Below, piece by piece: positions 1-8,958 of a DNA stretch of 64,000 nt (within the stretch, counting starts at the first letter, position 1; every line of letters starts with the position of its first letter). This DNA comes from Methylocella tundrae (GTDB taxonomy: Bacteria; Pseudomonadota; Alphaproteobacteria; Rhizobiales; Beijerinckiaceae). Where the stretch lies: the NCBI RefSeq assembly GCF_038024855.1, contig NZ_CP139089.1, forward strand, positions 3,320,501 through 3,384,500, read 5' to 3'. The notes under the pieces were generated by a model, which did not search any database, had not been told where the DNA came from, and was given only the letters and a program-made list of their open reading frames with translations. A program made the position numbers and the translations under genes.

Positions 1-1284
1 CGCCAGCGCCTGAAGCTGGTCGGAATCGGTCGTCTGGCCGATCTGCTGCAGCACCGGGGCGAGCGCCTGCTGCGCCTGCGCCTCGGTCAGCTCCGCCGGC
101 AGCGCCTCAAGCGTCTGCGCCAGCGCCTCAAGCGCGAAGGGAGCGGTCGTCTGGCCGATCTGCTGCAGCACCGAGGCGAGCACCTCTTGCGCCTGCGCCT
201 CGGTCAGCTTCGCCGCCAGCGCCTCAACCACCTGCGCCAACGCCTGAAGCCTGTAGCGATCGGTCGTCTGGCCGATCCGCTGCAGCACCGGGGCGAGCGC
301 CTGCTGCGCCTGCGCCTCGGTCAGCTTCGCCGCCAGCGCCTGGAGCGCCCCCCTCAGCGCGCGAAGCGCGGAGGGAGCGGTCGTTTGGCCAATCTGCCAC
401 AGCACCGGGGCGAGCGCCTGCTGCGCCTGCGCTTCGGTCAGCTTTGGCGCTAGCGCGTGGAGCGCCCGCGCCAGCGCCTCAAGCGCGGAGGGAGCGGTCG
501 TTTGGCCAATCTGCTGCAGCACCGGGGCGAGCGCCTGCTGCGCCTGCGCCTCGGTCAGCTTCACAGGCAGCGCCTCAACCACCTGCGCCAACGCCTGAAG
601 CCTGTAGCGATCGGTCGTCTGGCCGATCCGCTGCAGCACCGGGGCGAGCGCCTGCTGCGCCTGCGCCTCGGTCAGCTCCGCCGGCAGCGCCTGGAGCGCC
701 CGCGCCAGCGCCTCAAGCGCGAAGGGAGCGGTCGTCTGGCCGATCCGCTGCAGCAGCGAGGCGAGCGCCTGTTGCGCCTGCGCCTCGGTCAGCTCCGCCG
801 GCAGCGCCTGGAGCGCCCGCGCCAGCGCCTCAAGCGCGAAGGGAGCGGTCGTCTGGCCGATCTGCTGCAGCACCGAGGCGAGCGCCTGTTGCGCCTGCGC
901 CTCGGTCAGCTTCGCCGCCAGCGCCTCAAGCGTCTGCGCCAGCGCCTGAAGCTGGTCGGAATCGGTCGTCTGGCCGATCTGCTGCAGCACCGGGGCGAGC
1001 GCCTGCTGCGCCTGCGCCTCGGTCAGCTTCGCCGCCAGCGCCTCAAGCGTCTGCGCCAGCGCCTGAAGCTGGTCGGAATCGGTCGTCTGGCCGATCTGCT
1101 GCAGCACCGGGGCGAGCGCCTGCTGCGCCTGCGCCTCGGTCAGCTTCGCCGCCAGCGCCTGGAGCGCCCCCCTCAGCGCGCGAAGCGCGGAGGAATCGGT
1201 CGTTTGGCCAATCTGCTGCAGCACCGGGGCGAGCGCCTGCTGCGCCTGCGCCTCGGTCAGCTTCGGCGCCAGCGCCTCGATCAC
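1..1284 (-). repeat. 117-bp in-frame tandem repeat array (11 copies visible)
   Basis: The motif cggtcag recurs at 84, 201, 318, 435, 552, 669, 786, 903, 1020, 1137 and 1254, always exactly 117 bp apart. Each unit encodes 39 residues on the minus strand, roughly ALAPVLQQIGQTTDS, then a variable LQALA/LRALR stretch, then EALAAKLTEAQAQQ. Units differ mainly in two short patches and are otherwise nearly identical at DNA level, which suggests recent duplication or gene conversion. The array is still open at position 1. Confidence 0.95.
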
Positions 1285-3744
1285 AACCCCAATCGACTGA
1301 GGTCTGTTTATGCCAGGTGCACTTCGGAGTGCAGCTAACGCAGCACTAAGGAGTTTCTCGGCCTCACTTGGCAGCGGCCTTTGCAAACCTAGCGATCTGG
1401 AGACTTGCCCGAATCCGGGCGCCACGCGAACCATCTCCTCAGGGTTCCCCACCAAGGTGGAAATGAAGTCTTGTTGGATCGCCGTGTCCGCCGCCGCCAG
1501 CTTCCAAAGGGCATTGCGCTGGTGCGCGGTGAGGGGTTTGTCGGATTCCAACCCGAAATCGTTCAAAATAGCCTCAGCGAGAGCCTCGTTTGCATGGTCG
1601 AGTTGATGCTGCGTTTCCTTCGCCTGCGTCGAGGCCTGATTCAAGAAACAAAGTGCCGAAGCTGCAGAAAGAATAGCAAAACCCGCAGCAACAATAGCAA
1701 TCACCAAATATTTGAGCAGCCGGCGCCCTGAGGCTTCAGCTTGCCGTGCCGCGCCTTCAGCAGTTTTCCTGGCCTCTTCCTCGGCCGCCGCCCTAGCCTC
1801 TGCCTGTCGCGCCGCTTCCTCAGCGGCTTCCCTGGCCCGACGTTCCGCATCGGCAAGCCGCCTCTGATCCGCCAGATCGGCTTCCCGCTCCGCATCGAAA
1901 CGGCCCTTTTCCTTTTCCAGCGACAACTCGACATAATCGCGGAGGTCGTCCACTGCGACATCGCCGGGGTCGTCGAGCAGATCCCGGCCACGCTCGAGTT
2001 GAACGCCAGGATCGAGTAAGTACTTGTCGATCCTGTCTTTTTCTTCCCAGTCCGCCTTGGCTGCGAGGATCACCGCCCGCGCCCGAAGCTTTTCACGATT
2101 CGCGTCGACCCACGCGCGCAGCGTCGGCCAGCGGCGGATCAGCGCCTCATGCGCCACCTCGACCGTCGCGCGCACGTCGTTTCCCGCTTGCGAGGCTCCC
2201 TGCAGCGCCGTGTAGCCAGTCACCAGCAGCCGGGTCCGGGGATTGGAAAAGATATTTATAACATCTCGCTGCTGCGGATCGTCGGGGATCAGGCTGCGCG
2301 CGCGGGTGTCTTCCTGCCCTTCGCCAGGGGTGACAAGACGCAGGAACAGGCACCGCGCCGCGTCCTGCTGCGCCGGCGTCAAGGCCGCGTAGGCGCGCTC
2401 CGCCGTCTTTTCGATAGCGCCCGTGACGCCGCCCACTTCCGTATAGGCCTCAGCGCTGAGCCGATCACCCTGCCGTTTCTCCCATGTTTCCTTTAGCGCA
2501 AACTGAAGCAAAGGCAGCCGCCCTTCCTGTGCGCCGACGTCGTTCAGAATCTGATCGACAAGCGCCGGCGGATCGAAGGAAAGCCCCGCCATCCTGGCCG
2601 GCGTTTCGATCGCCGATCGCAGGTCGCTCCGGCCCATCGGAGGCATATTGACTTGCTGCCGCGGCAGGAGCGCGCTCACCAACGCGTTTCTGATGAGAGG
2701 AGCGTAGAAGTCCGCGCGCACCGTCAACACGACGTTCGCGCGAGGATTTAGCCCGGATGAGGTTGCGACCAGCAGCGCGATAAACTTTTCGACGTCGCCG
2801 GAATGCTGGTGAAGTCGCTCCTTGTCCTCGGCTGCCGGGGCCATGGCGTAAAGCTCTTCCCATTGATCGACATAGATCAGCAGCCGATCGAACTTCTCGG
2901 GCGCAGCGTCGAGACGGTCGTTGACGATGCGGGCGAGCTTGCCTGCGTCGCCCGCACGATAAGCGGCGGCTTCGTCTTCGAGATAGGTGTCGATAGCGGC
3001 GGGTCCGGCATCTTGCGGCGCGGCGCCGAAGGCGGCCGCCAAAGCTCGAAGCGGCGACGCGCCCGGACGGAGCGATACGACGTCCCACATCGTGGTCTGA
3101 CGCTGCTGGCGCAACGCCGGAAGCAGACCGGCGAACACAAGCGATGACTTGCCGCTGCCCGAAGGGCCGATGACGGCCACAAAGGCGTGCGCCTTCACCT
3201 GCGCGACCAGGTCGCTGATTGCGCCATCCCGGCCGCAGAAGAAGGCGGCGTCTTCTTCCCGGAAGGGCTCCAGGCCCCTGTAGGGGCAGATCAGCGCGCG
3301 AATGGACGACGGCGGGACCGCCTCTCCATGAATGGCCTCGCGAAGGAACGCCAGGCTGTCCTGCTGCGGCAGCACCGTGGCGCCCCGGCTGAGGTCAACC
3401 CAGGTCAGAAGCTGCAAAAAGCCGGTTGGCGGGTTCTGGCAGCCCGGCATGAGCACCGGAATCACCGGAAACCCGTCATCGCGCATCTGCCGCACCAAAG
3501 CGAGCTCACGCTCATATTGCTGGGCGTTGCCAATCCCGTGGGGACCGACGAGGATGGCGACAGCATCGGATTGTCCAATCGCGTCTTCGAGCGCCGGGAT
3601 CCAGCGAAGACCCGGGCGAAGCTCACTGCGGTCAAAGAAGGTACGGAGGCCCTGGGCGCTCAGCCAGCCGTTCAGCTCCGCCGCGGCGGCTCCGTCGCTG
3701 CGGGCATAGCTCAGGAAAACATCGTAGCCGCCTTGACGCGTCAT
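1..3744 (-). CDS. TIR - nSTAND1 NTPase - membrane segment - 39-residue repeat protein (3' partial)
   Basis: One open frame runs from ATG at 3744 to the window edge, at least 1248 codons with no stop. Residues 1-130 form a TIR domain opening with YDVFLSYARSD. Residues ~152-172 read CPYRGLEPFREEDAAFFCGRD, split here as CPYRGLEPF then FCGRD, the hallmark entry to nSTAND1 NTPases. Walker A is GPSGSGKSS at ~193-201, and a Walker B-like LLIYVDQWEELY lies near 280. A charged, Glu/Arg/Ala-rich coiled coil occupies ~600-670, followed by one hydrophobic segment at ~675-698. The rest is Ala/Gln-rich helical repeats of 39 residues. TIR domains of this class commonly cleave NAD+, and STAND NTPases act as ligand-triggered switches; a defence or sensing role is inferred. 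The start is set by the TIR fold because the ribosome site is weak. The C-terminus lies outside the window. Confidence 0.85.
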   Translation of the reverse strand, partial: MTRQGGYDVFLSYARSDGAAAAELNGWLSAQGLRTFFDRSELRPGLRWIPALEDAIGQSDAVAILVGPHGIGNAQQYERELALVRQMRDDGFPVIPVLMPGCQNPPTGFLQLLTWVDLSRGATVLPQQDSLAFLREAIHGEAVPPSSIRALICPYRGLEPFREEDAAFFCGRDGAISDLVAQVKAHAFVAVIGPSGSGKSSLVFAGLLPALRQQRQTTMWDVVSLRPGASPLRALAAAFGAAPQDAGPAAIDTYLEDEAAAYRAGDAGKLARIVNDRLDAAPEKFDRLLIYVDQWEELYAMAPAAEDKERLHQHSGDVEKFIALLVATSSGLNPRANVVLTVRADFYAPLIRNALVSALLPRQQVNMPPMGRSDLRSAIETPARMAGLSFDPPALVDQILNDVGAQEGRLPLLQFALKETWEKRQGDRLSAEAYTEVGGVTGAIEKTAERAYAALTPAQQDAARCLFLRLVTPGEGQEDTRARSLIPDDPQQRDVINIFSNPRTRLLVTGYTALQGASQAGNDVRATVEVAHEALIRRWPTLRAWVDANREKLRARAVILAAKADWEEKDRIDKYLLDPGVQLERGRDLLDDPGDVAVDDLRDYVELSLEKEKGRFDAEREADLADQRRLADAERRAREAAEEAARQAEARAAAEEEARKTAEGAARQAEASGRRLLKYLVIAIVAAGFAILSAASALCFLNQASTQAKETQHQLDHANEALAEAILNDFGLESDKPLTAHQRNALWKLAAADTAIQQDFISTLVGNPEEMVRVAPGFGQVSRSLGLQRPLPSEAEKLLSAALAALRSAPGINRPQSIGVVIEALAPKLTEAQAQQALAPVLQQIGQTTDSSALRALRGALQALAAKLTEAQAQQALAPVLQQIGQTTDSDQLQALAQTLEALAAKLTEAQAQQALAPVLQQIGQTTDSDQLQALAQTLEALAAKLTEAQAQQALASVLQQIGQTTAPFALEALARALQALPAELTEAQAQQALASLLQRIGQTTAPFALEALARALQALPAELTEAQAQQALAPVLQRIGQTTDRYRLQALAQVVEALPVKLTEAQAQQALAPVLQQIGQTTAPSALEALARALHALAPKLTEAQAQQALAPVLWQIGQTTAPSALRALRGALQALAAKLTEAQAQQALAPVLQRIGQTTDRYRLQALAQVVEALAAKLTEAQAQEVLASVLQQIGQTTAPFALEALAQTLEALPAELTEAQAQQALAPVLQQIGQTTDSDQLQALA

Positions 3745-3940
3745 CCCGCTGCGCTTTCCGGACAGGCCGATGTTGAACCGCAACGTACGCGTCAGTCAAA
3801 TGTTTAGTCATGGCCGGAATGGAATCGGGAGTGGACGACTTTGAAGTGGCAAGCGGTTTCACGGTCGGCAGGTTTTGAGCTGAAATTGCTTCAAGCATTC
3901 GCATGAACGATGTCGAGGGCAGTTAATGGCGTTGGTCGCC

Positions 3941-4259: not shown

Positions 4260-4423
4260 TTGGAGGGCGCAAAGGTAGAGCTTGTCTGATGGAAAGCGAG
4301 CATTGCGCTGCGGCCCGCGGATCAGCGCGTATATTCGAGAGAGCGAGATGACGAGGACAAACTGGGACGACTTGTTTGGTGGCGGATAGGATAAGCTCTT
4401 AAAATCAATCGCTTATCTTTGGG

Positions 4424-4490
4424 TGCGGTCGGGATTTGAACCTGCGGCCTTCAGGTTATGAGTCTCACGCCTGTGCGCCACAACAATTTT
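4424..4490 (-). other. Degenerate initiator-tRNA-like fragment
   Basis: Read on the minus strand, this stretch contains CTCATAACCTGAAGG followed by GCAGGTTCAAATCCC. This matches the anticodon loop (CAT) and T-arm pattern of tRNA-fMet. The T-stem no longer pairs fully and the 5' half (D-arm side) does not form a tRNA, so it is not a working gene. It sits immediately downstream of the integrase stop and may be an old attachment-site copy. The exact limits are approximate. Confidence 0.45.
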
Positions 4491-4540: not shown

Positions 4541-5842
4541 TCATAAAGCTTCGTCGCCCGCTGGAAGCCCTATAGAGACCACGCCGTCTTTGGGGGAAGG
4601 CCCATTCATCGCTGCAGCAATCGTCGCGCCAATCGTGTCGACAGCGCGGCGTAGCGGGTCACAATCGAGATGCGCGTAGCGATGCGTCGTTGCGGCCTGC
4701 GTATGGCCCAGGAGCTTGCCGATGATGGGAAGCCCAAGCGAAGCCCCAGCACCGACCGACGCAAATGAATGCCGCAAGTCATGGATGCGCAGGCCCTGCA
4801 GTCCCGCCGCCGCCGTGATCGCGACCCAGGGCTTTTTCAGATCGCTTCGCGAAGCGCCGGCTTTACTGCCGCAAATTACGAAGGAATTGCCTTCGACGCG
4901 CGGAAGACTTTCTAGTATCGGGAGCGCGGCCGGTGGCAAGTAAATCGATTTCTTTCCCGTTTTTGAATCGGCCAAGTGAAGCATGCCACGTTCGAAATCG
5001 ACATGCCGCCATTCCAGGTCGAGGATTTCACGGAGCCGAGCGCCGGTGAGAATCAAGAGGCGGATCGCAGCGATCGCGAACGGGTCGATCACGCGGCGGC
5101 GGTTCTCGGGTTTCGGCGCATGCTTTGCGCTTGGCTTTGTCATATCGATGTCGAAAGCGATCCCGATGGTCTCCCCTTCGCGAAGCGCATCGCCCAGCCT
5201 TCCAAGTTCTAACGAACTCAGAAACCGTTCGCGGCGATGTTCCGGGAAGCGCTCGATCCGGGTGGCTGGATTGGAGCCTTCGGGAACCAGGCCACGGGCG
5301 TTCGCCCAATTGAACAGTTTCGAGATGACGGCAAGGCAGCGGTTGGCTGCGAACGGGGTGGCTCGCATCTTCGCGTGCAATGCTGCGACCTGACCGCGTG
5401 AAAGGCTTTCCGCCCTTAGGCCCCCATGCGCCTTGCGAAGCCGCTGGAGCGCTTCCTTATGGCCTGTAGCAGTGCCCTTCTTGCACTTCAGGGCGACATG
5501 CTCGGCAAGGAAGGCGTCGATCAAGGCGGACACGGTCAGGGCCTCCCGGGCCGCCGCCTTCTCCGCCGCCGGGTCCGCGCCAAGGCGCACTTGAGCGAGT
5601 AATTTATGGGCCGCCGCCCGGGCTTGATCTGGCGTGGTCGGGCCATAACGGCCGAGGGTGAGCCGACGTTTATGAACGGCGCGTCCGCCCCCATGTGGTC
5701 GGTACTCGACGACGAATGTTTTCAGGCCGGATGGCATGACGCGGACGCCAAAACCCGGCAGATCTTCATCGAAGAAGATCGCCGGCTTGTCGGCCGGTCG
5801 TAACCCGTCGACGCTTCGCTTGCCGATTTTGATCTGAGCCAT
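4541..5842 (-). CDS. Tyrosine recombinase/integrase (DUF4102 type)
   Basis: A 433-residue site-specific recombinase of the tRNA-targeting island/prophage class. The N-terminus (MAQIKIGKRSVDGLRP onward, with FFDEDLPGFGVRV) is the DUF4102 arm-binding domain. The catalytic set is visible in order: Arg in TGARLREIL, Lys in DSKTGKK, HxxR in HDLRHSF, His in GHTQ and the nucleophile Tyr in HRYAHL. ATG at 5842 is chosen over an upstream GTG because the conserved N-terminus begins there. It appears intact. The tRNA-Thr 3' fragment lies 140 bp upstream, the usual geometry for an island integrase beside its attachment site. The TIR-STAND gene is plausible cargo of the same island. Confidence 0.92.
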   Translation of the reverse strand: MAQIKIGKRSVDGLRPADKPAIFFDEDLPGFGVRVMPSGLKTFVVEYRPHGGGRAVHKRRLTLGRYGPTTPDQARAAAHKLLAQVRLGADPAAEKAAAREALTVSALIDAFLAEHVALKCKKGTATGHKEALQRLRKAHGGLRAESLSRGQVAALHAKMRATPFAANRCLAVISKLFNWANARGLVPEGSNPATRIERFPEHRRERFLSSLELGRLGDALREGETIGIAFDIDMTKPSAKHAPKPENRRRVIDPFAIAAIRLLILTGARLREILDLEWRHVDFERGMLHLADSKTGKKSIYLPPAALPILESLPRVEGNSFVICGSKAGASRSDLKKPWVAITAAAGLQGLRIHDLRHSFASVGAGASLGLPIIGKLLGHTQAATTHRYAHLDCDPLRRAVDTIGATIAAAMNGPSPKDGVVSIGLPAGDEAL

Positions 5843-5979
5843 GTTTTGTCGCCACCGTGTCGCCACCGCAAATGAAATGTAAGGCTGCTCTAGGAATGCC
5901 TGTCAAGCTTATCGTTTTGAAATAAAAGGTATTTTGAAACGCTGTGAAATGGCAGGAAACGTCGTGAAACCATAAAAAT

Positions 5980-6028
5980 CACATTCGTAATGAGGGGGTC
6001 GGGGGTTCGAATCCCTCTTGCGGCACCA
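5980..6028 (+). other. tRNA-Thr(CGT) 3' fragment, probable att site
   Basis: The sequence contains CATTCGTAATG (anticodon arm, CGT), then GGGGGTTCGAATCCCTC (T-arm), and ends TTGCGGCACCA with an encoded CCA. The upstream 35 bases do not form a D-arm or the 5' acceptor strand, so this is only the 3' half. Such partial copies arise when an integrase inserts an element into a tRNA 3' end. Here the element should lie to the left (integrase side), with the intact tRNA gene beyond position 1. Confidence 0.8.
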
Positions 6029-7267: not shown

Positions 7268-8958
7268 GATTTCCGCCGAGAATTGGCTCTGACTCATATT
7301 TGCTGCGGTTCGCCGGGACGCTCTTGCTGATTCGTCGGAGGAGCTGTGAATGGGTCAGCAATTTCAACGCGCCAGCCTGGCGCCAGATGGCTTTGCAGTT
7401 GATGGTGTCACGGTGGAAGGCGCCCGGGTCCAGATCCGGTTGCGGTCCCTTCGGCCGTTTGGTCATTGTCCAGATTGCGGTCGAAGAAGCGGCCGGATTC
7501 AGAGTCGGTATTTGCGCCGCCCCGCCGACCTTCCCCTTGGCGGCCGCCAAGTCGAACTGATGGTTATTGCGCGACGGTTCTGGTGCGACGCGGTTTTGTG
7601 CGGTCGGCGCATCTTTTGCGAACGATTTGAGACTGGCGTCCTTTCCCCATACGGCCGGCGCACCGGAAGGCTTGAGACTATCGTCCATCATCTCGGTCTG
7701 GCCTTGGGTGGCAGACCTGCGGCGGCTTTCGCCCTTCGCTTGATGATGCCCGTCAGCAACGACACGCTTCTGCGTGTCGTGCGTCGCCGCAGCACCCAGA
7801 CCGATGGCGCCGAGCTTACGGTCATCGGCATTGACGACTTCGCGTTTCGTCGAGGACAGACCTATGGAACGATCGTCTGCGATCTTGAGCGCCGTCGCCC
7901 CGTGATCTTGTTGCCAGATCGGGCGCTGGACACCTCTCGGGCGTGGCTGGCTGAGCGGCCTTCAATACTTACGGTCGCCCGGGACCGGGGCGGCGGTTAC
8001 GGCGAGGCCATCGCCAAAGCCCTGCCGCACGCTGAACAAGTCGCGGATCGTTGGCATCTCCTGGAGAACTCGAGCCGGGCCTTTCTCGATGCGGTTGGCA
8101 AATCCATGCGGCAGATCAGAAAGGCCATCGGCAGCAGCGTCATAGATCCCAAGCTTCTCACCTGTGCTGAGCGCCTCCAGTACCAGGGATATCTGCGTCG
8201 GCAGGAGACAAATGAGGCCATTCTGAAAATGTCGAAGCAAGGCGCCCCAATCAGGCAAATCGTGAGGGAGACGGGACACAGCCGCAAGCTTGTTCGCGAC
8301 GTCCTGCGCGGCCAGCGGACGGATGTCTTCCGGACAAAGCCCAGTTCGCTGGATAGCTGGTCGCCCTGGCTGAATGAGCGCTGGGAGAAAGGGGAGCGCA
8401 ATGCGCTGGCGCTTTGGCGCGAAATGCGTGTGGCGGGCTTTTCCGGGCGAAGCGGCGTGGTGTCACAATGGGCGCAACGCAGACGCCTTGCGGAAAAGGC
8501 AGGTCAAAACGCGCTGGCGCGAACGCCGTCAGCTCGGATCATCGCCCGTCTAATGACGTCGGCACGTGACGACCTGACAAAGTCTGAAGCCATTCTGGTG
8601 GCGGCCATTGAAGGAAATGTCCAGGATCTGGTTGTTGCTCGCGAGGCCATCATGGAGTTCCAATCCATGATCCGATCAAAGGCGGCCGCCAAGCTGGACG
8701 CGTGGCTCGAAGCTGGGAAGGGAACCCTTGTCGGATCTTTCGCCAATGGTGTCGAGAAAGATCTGGCCGCCGTCCGAAATGCGATCATCTCGCCCTGGTC
8801 CAATGGACAGACGGAGGGGCAGATCACTCGTCTGAAACTCATCAAACGCCAGATGTACGGGCGCGCCAAAATCGATCTGCTTCAGGCGCGACTGATCGGC
8901 GCGGGGTAGCTGATCGCCTTCAGCAAAAATGCGTCAGAGCCAGTTCTCAGTGGAAATC
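7268..8958 (+). mobile_element. ISL3-family insertion sequence
   Basis: Terminal inverted repeats of about 38 bp flank the transposase gene. The left repeat begins near 7268 and contains GGCTCTGACTCATATTTGCTG in the top strand (first 20 shown as GGCTCTGACTCATATTTGCT). The right repeat (8921-8958) carries the complement with four or five mismatches. No clear 8-bp target duplication is visible in the flanks (gacctgtc against aacacttt), so one side may have been rearranged after insertion. Confidence 0.75.
7350..8909 (+). CDS. ISL3-family transposase
   Basis: A 519-residue transposase that looks complete. The N-terminal zinc-binding motif is CPDCGRRSGR near residue 40. The DDE domain shows TVIGIDDFAFRRGQTYGTIV near 160, ARDRGGGYGEAI near 215, VADRWHLLEN, and the C-terminal WSNGQTEGQITRLKLIKRQM, where the last Glu belongs to the catalytic triad. 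It carries out DNA transposition of the surrounding element. Insertion separated a small island gene from its 5' end. Confidence 0.93.
   Translation: MGQQFQRASLAPDGFAVDGVTVEGARVQIRLRSLRPFGHCPDCGRRSGRIQSRYLRRPADLPLGGRQVELMVIARRFWCDAVLCGRRIFCERFETGVLSPYGRRTGRLETIVHHLGLALGGRPAAAFALRLMMPVSNDTLLRVVRRRSTQTDGAELTVIGIDDFAFRRGQTYGTIVCDLERRRPVILLPDRALDTSRAWLAERPSILTVARDRGGGYGEAIAKALPHAEQVADRWHLLENSSRAFLDAVGKSMRQIRKAIGSSVIDPKLLTCAERLQYQGYLRRQETNEAILKMSKQGAPIRQIVRETGHSRKLVRDVLRGQRTDVFRTKPSSLDSWSPWLNERWEKGERNALALWREMRVAGFSGRSGVVSQWAQRRRLAEKAGQNALARTPSARIIARLMTSARDDLTKSEAILVAAIEGNVQDLVVAREAIMEFQSMIRSKAAAKLDAWLEAGKGTLVGSFANGVEKDLAAVRNAIISPWSNGQTEGQITRLKLIKRQMYGRAKIDLLQARLIGAG

Follow-up and report, generated by a model that had tools for sequence, protein, structure and literature searches.

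Toll-like receptors carry a leucine-rich repeat (LRR) solenoid ectodomain, a single membrane helix and a cytoplasmic TIR domain, with the N-terminus outside the cell. In bacteria, the Avs proteins are soluble, and the antiphage STAND NTPases that have been studied bind phage proteins, as far as is known in the cytoplasm. The nSTAND1 family was named in PMC8195603; conflict systems containing membrane helices and parts that bind peptidoglycan were predicted in PMC7159879, and periplasmic sensors were predicted for some STAND proteins in PMC10907252. The subject of the present study is a gene of Methylocella tundrae at the left edge of the window, which is the whole 64,000-nucleotide stretch that was analysed (bases 3320501-3384500, contig 3 of a 4.42-Mb, three-contig genome). 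The gene encodes, in this order, a TIR domain, an nSTAND1 NTPase, a coiled coil, one membrane helix, a conserved linker, a HEAT-like repeat array and a cap with a terminal cysteine pair. With a probability of about 0.58, we consider this product, called the receptor below, to be a transmembrane immune receptor, in which the TIR and nSTAND1 domains would be cytoplasmic, the helix would pass through the inner membrane, the linker, array and cap would be periplasmic, and an envelope ligand would trigger NAD+ loss by the TIR domain.

The receptor frame is open on the minus strand over window positions 1..3783, and the genome carries it on, free of stops and frameshifts, to position -776, i.e., 777 bases past the window edge. 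The gene is intact, free of the frameshift or stop against which an earlier note made from the window alone had warned, and comprises 1506 codons from the ATG at 3744 or 1519 from a TTG. The domain order given in that note was reproduced, with Pfam, hydropathy and AlphaFold2 in agreement, and the TIR and nSTAND1 profiles proposed there as a check both scored far above the Pfam cut-offs (Table 1). Across the aligned rows, the Walker A lysine is present in 21 of 21 and the Walker B aspartate in 20 of 21. The residue E78 (ATG numbering), located in GIGNAQQYERELAL, is conserved in all 19 TIR rows of one alignment, and the expected glutamate was found in 17 of 17 rows of another; this conserved glutamate supports the TIR reading of the same note, and E78 is likely the catalytic residue. 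At the position of the tryptophan four residues before E78, alanine or threonine stands instead in 16 of the 20 rows having a residue there. Comparison of the TIR domain with PDB sequences gave weak matches (best E 0.03), and a gapped alignment to 3h16 could put E80 in place of E78.

The side of the membrane on which the array lies was evaluated by comparison with relatives. Homologues were sought with residues 690-880 of the receptor, and relatives of a protein with an M23 domain (see below) were also sought; in these searches, the 7999 candidates sharing the most words were scored, and the resulting counts are lower bounds. A membrane helix precedes the linker in 37 of 40 family rows; in view of this proportion, a TM-less (transmembrane-helix-less) origin of all members was set aside. 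Lysine plus arginine around the helix amounts to 4.9 on the N-terminal side vs 2.6 on the C-terminal side, and this charge bias favours an outside position of the array in 35 of 38 rows, with three rows equal and none reversed (among the equal ones, P0039 lacks a true membrane helix). The sensor half ends in the motif PP[IV]CPxPPQ...LxCP, or a similar one, in 34 of 44 rows. Nine rows lack it: eight have truncated, frame-shifted or unrelated ends by eye, and P0039 is distant; P0034 was left out of the count, its match being a chance one in a shifted frame. In 25 of the 34 proteins, this pair represents the sole cysteines over some 500-1100 residues. Other cysteines number 16 in 25,386 residues behind the linker start (11 without P0034) vs 79 in 17,149 residues in front of it, while W, H, M, F and Y drop merely to 0.40-0.85 of their front frequency.

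Additionally, domains of peptidoglycan-type proteins were found beyond the single helix. In P0010, which comprises 12 member sequences, a single membrane helix is combined with a PG_binding_1 domain within the array, and Agrobacterium WP_174012738.1 (P0040) consists of TIR, one helix, WD40 and Peptidase_M23; M23 is also present in P0057 (near-identical to P0040), P0058 (91%) and P0059 (69%). The P0040 gene, located on plasmid pAtCG920 (L019:5959-8892), is annotated merely as a peptidoglycan endopeptidase and has relatives in R. leguminosarum and others. In the five TIR-TM-WD40 proteins P0061-P0065, the part behind the helix contains two cysteines in all, both of them close to its end. Among 14 plasmid nSTAND1 proteins (cyanobacteria, Streptomyces, Caballeronia, Rhizobium), hand-picked and therefore non-random, from the first 25 of 30 listed matches out of 176 records, the NTPase is followed by a membrane segment in 13, one of which has two such segments and no sensor. 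The terminal cysteine pair was found in 11 of the 12 that combine a helix with a sensor (recognized by eye), and neither in the sensor protein without a helix nor in the protein without a sensor (Fisher p 0.033 for the helix-pair link in this small sample). From these comparisons, we infer that the array probably lies outside the cytoplasm and that the terminal cysteine pair probably closes the cap as a disulfide. The single membrane pass with repeats on the far side, as suggested before, is supported, given the one strong hydrophobic segment, the side itself being assigned tentatively by sequence comparison. A second, weaker segment (hydropathy 1.7) is situated inside a 48-residue repeat, beyond the window and the modelled part. 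At the same time, the opinion that a membrane-anchored layout is unusual, such proteins being mostly soluble, was not supported for nSTAND1 proteins in light of the 13 of 14 plasmid proteins and 37 of 40 family rows with a membrane segment.

The array itself is a DNA repeat with a 117-bp period (12.4 copies, 88% matches, score 2071). The earlier note had counted at least eleven near-identical 39-residue repeats; the near-identical 39-residue array was found, and the whole gene has 14 complete repeats (twelve of 39 residues, one of 48 and one of 39) with half-repeats at both ends, but the window covers only ten of the complete repeats and the greater part of an eleventh, and one repeat is 48 residues long. 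Between the repeats of 39 residues (13 in all), identity averages 77% for protein and 87% for DNA. In the AlphaFold2 model, each repeat forms two helices, A at positions 3-19 and B at positions 23-37, stacked in a HEAT/ARM-like solenoid, and the repeats described previously as Ala/Gln-rich are therefore HEAT-like. No Pfam HEAT profile exceeded its cut-off in the receptor (the best was UTP20, 23.5 bits vs a cut-off of 27), while relative P0011 exceeds the HEAT_2 cut-off; the structure matches obtained with VIA-align concern the array only and say nothing on the TIR or NTPase folds. The repeats are mosaics, in which the loop types TDSS, TDSD, TAPF, TAPS and TDRY are joined with the helix-B types RALRGALQ, QALAQTLE, EALARALQ and QALAQVVE; so few loop types combined with so few helix-B types indicate exchange between repeats. 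Over 36 proteins and 326 repeats, within-array entropy is highest at positions 24 (2.14 bits), 27 (1.84) and 31 (1.59), which share one side of helix B. Helix B lines the concave surface in HEAT solenoids, and the helix-B face of the array, taken as concave, would accordingly be the candidate ligand face.

The linker-array module was found in at least 39 database proteins, including a paralogue in the same genome. According to Pfam, 19 of the 39 listed have TIR_2 and nSTAND1, six nSTAND1 without TIR, 11 TIR without nSTAND1, and three neither. A script detected the Walker A motif in 24 of these 39; of the 15 remaining, two (P0012 and P0034) were recognized by eye as cut fragments of nSTAND1 proteins, and in the other 13, e.g., P0015, P0023 (Mesorhizobium) and P0037 (Rhizobium leguminosarum plasmid), a TIR-like domain leads straight to the membrane helix with no NTPase. 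The inside part is thus swapped before a constant sensor, since the module stands behind TIR-nSTAND1, nSTAND1 or TIR. When the TIR-stalk-TM part of P0037 was used as the query, 21 proteins were obtained, including P0037 itself, with HEAT-like, TPR, WD40 or FGE-sulfatase domains, or no assigned domain (P0042), behind the helix; because of these HEAT-like, TPR, WD40 and FGE versions, sensors are also considered to be swapped behind a constant inside-and-membrane part. We therefore put forward, as a tentative proposal a little short of even odds, a Toll-like class in bacteria with a swappable periplasmic solenoid or propeller (HEAT, WD40, TPR, FGE), one helix, a cytoplasmic TIR and an optional nSTAND1, in which the terminal cysteine pair of the HEAT and WD40 versions would mark oxidised outside sensors and most nSTAND1 receptors would watch the envelope rather than the cytoplasm. 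As side observations, the N-termini of P0010 and P0020 look DUF4062-like by eye, while Pfam gave no DUF4062 there (DUF4062 was reported as a TIR-like NADase in PMC13174449). The C-termini of P0027 and P0028 end in unrelated sequence and are either a fusion or a misassembly; P0027 has a precomputed PF01179 domain, which we take to be copper amine oxidase.

The linker is rare, being detected in one of 397 genomes of the order, two of 397 of the family and one of 385 of the class, with the own genome counted each time, the samples overlapping, and at most 11-12 candidates scored per genome. The second genome (G753) gave a weak match (1.4e-4) with an in-frame stop; on its contig 75, this broken relative adjoins a gene for a TIR protein whose start looks trypsin-like by eye. 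Two scans of contigs of named genomes yielded no relative in one case and, in the other, a single weak match in Dyadobacter (best segment 46%, covering query residues 4-40). No relatives were found in viral contigs, three phage records matched in the NTPase part only, and the C-terminal half of the receptor had no match among plasmids (BLAST with the low-complexity filter on).

The proposed transmembrane receptor could work as follows. The helix-B face would bind an envelope ligand, which might be a phage entry protein, disturbed peptidoglycan or the product of an intruding cell, and binding would be passed on via the membrane helix and coiled coil; nSTAND1 would then open and oligomerise, and the clustered TIR domains would destroy or convert NAD+, so that the cell would arrest before the phage multiplies. 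Relatives that lack the NTPase would cluster their TIR domains directly. The NTPase switch, the NADase activity and the defence role are all proposed by analogy. The gene neighbourhood provides a different option for the last step. The paralogue (1394 codons) starts 4.3 kb downstream of the receptor on the same strand, and between the two are genes for a TPR-S protein (4.1e-21), a PG_binding_1 protein and a SLATT_1 membrane protein (1.1e-16); the gaps in this five-gene run are 75, 361, 9 and 113 bases, and the five genes may be co-transcribed. Given the SLATT_1 and TPR-S genes in the run, and a resemblance of P0037 to Thoeris ThcB4 that lies far below the cut-off, the TIR domain might not be lethal by itself and might make a nucleotide signal opening the adjacent SLATT protein or activating the TPR-S protein. 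We regard this as unlikely, as no SMODS, SLOG or SAVED partner was found among the genes scanned with Pfam. The Thoeris ThsB profile did not match the receptor in the Pfam and PADLOC scans. The PG_binding_1 protein between the receptors (L004:6474-7952) has a CHAP match just below the cut-off and no obvious signal peptide by eye. Identity between receptor and paralogue is 38% in TIR, 36% in nSTAND1, 50% in membrane helix plus linker, 45% in the array and 57% in the cap, so that conservation is higher in the sensor half; the repeats of the paralogue have diverged from one another (mean identity 38% among six ungapped ones).

Several observations weigh against a transmembrane receptor with an outside ligand face. 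P0009 and P0035 kept the linker, array and cysteine pair with no membrane helix, the distant P0039 has neither helix nor pair, most TPR-type TIR-TM relatives lack the terminal pair, and the Gloeothece CHAT-nSTAND1 protein has a helix and no pair. In the P0015 model, the pair is located within or next to a tail of low confidence; cysteine avoidance in the array may partly result from repeat homogenisation; and the M23 part of the P0040 type lacks some metal-binding histidines by eye and looks degenerate, so that it may bind rather than cut. The AlphaFold2 model of the receptor has a predicted TM-score (pTM) of only 0.44. As for the ligand face, the five polar-consensus positions of helix B are more variable than the ten of helix A in 34 of 36 proteins (30 of 32 without near-duplicates), with position sets picked after the entropies were seen, and variation is periodic in both helices (p for the helical moment: 0.028 in A, 0.033 in B). 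A DNA test of diversifying selection on the receptor's own array, based on minimum changes, gave nonsynonymous/synonymous counts of 9/5 for positions 1-20 vs 27/9 for positions 21-39 (Fisher p 0.50). An apparent dN/dS (nonsynonymous to synonymous rate ratio) above 1 for helix B in all-pairs comparison was dropped, the pairs being non-independent and the minimum-change test not significant.

The helix-less P0009 and P0035 and the TPR class without the pair, together with the binding of phage proteins by the antiphage STANDs so far studied (PMC10907252), would suit a hydrophobic segment that merely tethers the protein or does not cross the membrane, with a cytoplasmic array sensing a phage protein inside the cell. 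The extra cysteines behind the linker in P0009 and P0035, one and two, are as might be expected for cytoplasmic proteins, two cases that prove little; both proteins are possibly soluble decoys or partners. We consider the cytoplasmic array unlikely in the face of the charge bias, cysteine pattern and peptidoglycan-type domains beyond the single helix; if the helix does span the membrane, the array would be outside, because NAD+ is cytoplasmic.

The make-up of the array also bears on what is recognised. Near-identical repeats, which the earlier note had also pointed out, are known from STAND sensors: in fungal HNWD receptors, such repeats differ at a few sites that fall on the predicted ligand surface (PMC12222747, PMC4986451). 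With this precedent, the high internal repeat conservation, the mosaic repeats and the patchy presence could belong to a kin- or self-recognition device, in which shuffled repeats would define an allele type and the response would be set off not by a phage but by a protein of another strain; the sharing of a mobile element with Zorya and restriction-type genes argues against it, and we find it quite improbable. Near-identical DNA repeats are prone to replication slippage, and a purely neutral array with no recognition role, for which the non-significant selection test and the 117-bp near-identical repeats speak, is very hard to reconcile with a frame open through 14 repeats, retained core positions and the excess of helix-B over helix-A variability given above.

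The earlier note had placed the gene on an integrase-bearing island, and the evidence obtained for a defence island is stronger than was claimed. The element is ~46.3 kb long, is inserted in tRNA-Thr and contains both the receptor and the paralogue. In the same-species genome G524, the left flank (97.4% over 8.3 kb) leads into an intact tRNA-Thr, and the match picks up again on the right at 5982, in pieces of 91% and 98% identity that reach as far as 6543; this is the empty site of the element, which is found alongside the integrase and the duplicated attachment site (Table 1). PADLOC and Pfam detected a type III methylase (1350 bits), a ResIII-type protein, a UvrD-type helicase, Zorya type I A, B, C and D, and a patatin, and with these genes the element represents a defence island. 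The ZorD gene is split into two open frames (L036:6513-8717 and L036:8777-9613; genome about 3290513-3293613), which match separate parts of the ZorD profile, and may be inactive. A remnant similar to the tRNA-Met remnant inside the island lies near the true tRNA-Met at genome position 2000614; the remnant in the island is possibly an older attachment site, and the pairing suggests layered insertions. To the right of the island, a transposase-like open frame (ISL3 type by eye; window 7350-8909) has copies of 94-99% identity in one same-species and one same-genus genome.

Table 1 Window coordinates of the receptor gene, its domains and the adjoining end of the island
Feature	Position	Strand	Basis
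TIR-nSTAND1-TM-HEAT receptor gene, from ATG	1..3744, on to -776 (L004:9724-14244)	-	Open frame and Pfam
TIR_2 domain	3382..3720	-	Pfam 2.3e-20, 73.8 bits vs cut-off 28
nSTAND1 NTPase (PF20703), Walker A GPSGSGKSS, Walker B LLIYVDQWEE	2032..3285	-	Pfam 1.3e-111, 374 bits vs cut-off 27.1
Long coiled-coil-like helix, residues 602-665	1750..1941	-	AlphaFold2 secondary structure
Single transmembrane helix, N-terminal side R/K-rich	1630..1707	-	Hydropathy (mean 2.46) and flank charges
Conserved linker (ANxALAE...RQRNALWKLA...), family-defining	1261..1629	-	Alignment and homologue search
HEAT-like array, 39-residue period; reaches about -404, cap and Cys pair further on, outside the window	1..1260	-	
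Tyrosine integrase with arm-binding domain, island right end	4541..5866	-	Pfam Phage_integrase 5.3e-18, Arm-DNA-bind_3 1.4e-15
Right attachment site, 47 bp identical to 3' end of tRNA-Thr(CGT) at genome 3280185	5982..6028	+	
tRNA-Met 3'-end remnant inside island	4418..4469	-	

Since the antiphage STANDs examined to date sense phage proteins, as far as is known, inside the cell, a receptor class that reads the envelope instead could trigger NAD+ loss no later than the moment of DNA injection. A quick, testable marker by which nSTAND1 and TIR proteins could be divided into sensors of the outside and of the inside is offered by the terminal cysteine pair together with the peptidoglycan-type fusions. 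No TIR-TM-HEAT or TIR-nSTAND1-TM-HEAT receptor was described in the titles and abstract openings of the papers among the literature matches listed.

In comparison with known systems, Avs and other antiphage STAND NTPases share with the receptor an N-terminal effector, a STAND NTPase, C-terminal superstructure-forming repeats and a defence-gene setting, but the receptor has a membrane helix between NTPase and sensor, with the HEAT array placed outside; no Avs family matched it at E 0.001 (PADLOC). The conflict systems of PMC7159879 (iSTAND ternary, GAP1-N2) and the STANDs with periplasmic sensors of PMC10907252 likewise combine a cytoplasmic switch or effector, a membrane helix and an extracytoplasmic ligand domain, which is sometimes peptidoglycan-binding; in the available text, they have vWA-MoxR, GTPase or lectin sensors diversified by diversity-generating retroelements (DGRs), not TIR-nSTAND1-TM-HEAT or TIR-TM-HEAT. 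Fungal NOD-like receptors (NLRs) with high internal repeat conservation (HNWD; PMC4986451, PMC12222747) also have near-identical shuffled sensor repeats with few variable positions, but their repeats are WD40, ANK, TPR or HEAT, whereas the receptor has a bacterial HEAT array behind a membrane helix. Zorya type I is located on the same island and is also a proposed envelope reader, ZorB binding peptidoglycan and being proposed to sense its damage (PMC11890865); it is, however, an ion-driven motor with a separate effector arm, and the proteins are unrelated, so its position beside the receptor fits the envelope theme and proves nothing. Finally, the solenoid ectodomain, one membrane helix and cytoplasmic TIR are shared with Toll-like receptors, from which the receptor differs in having HEAT instead of LRR, the N-terminus inside instead of outside, an NTPase often interposed and no homology beyond TIR; if the proposed reading is true, it would represent a bacterial receptor with Toll-like working parts, arrived at independently.

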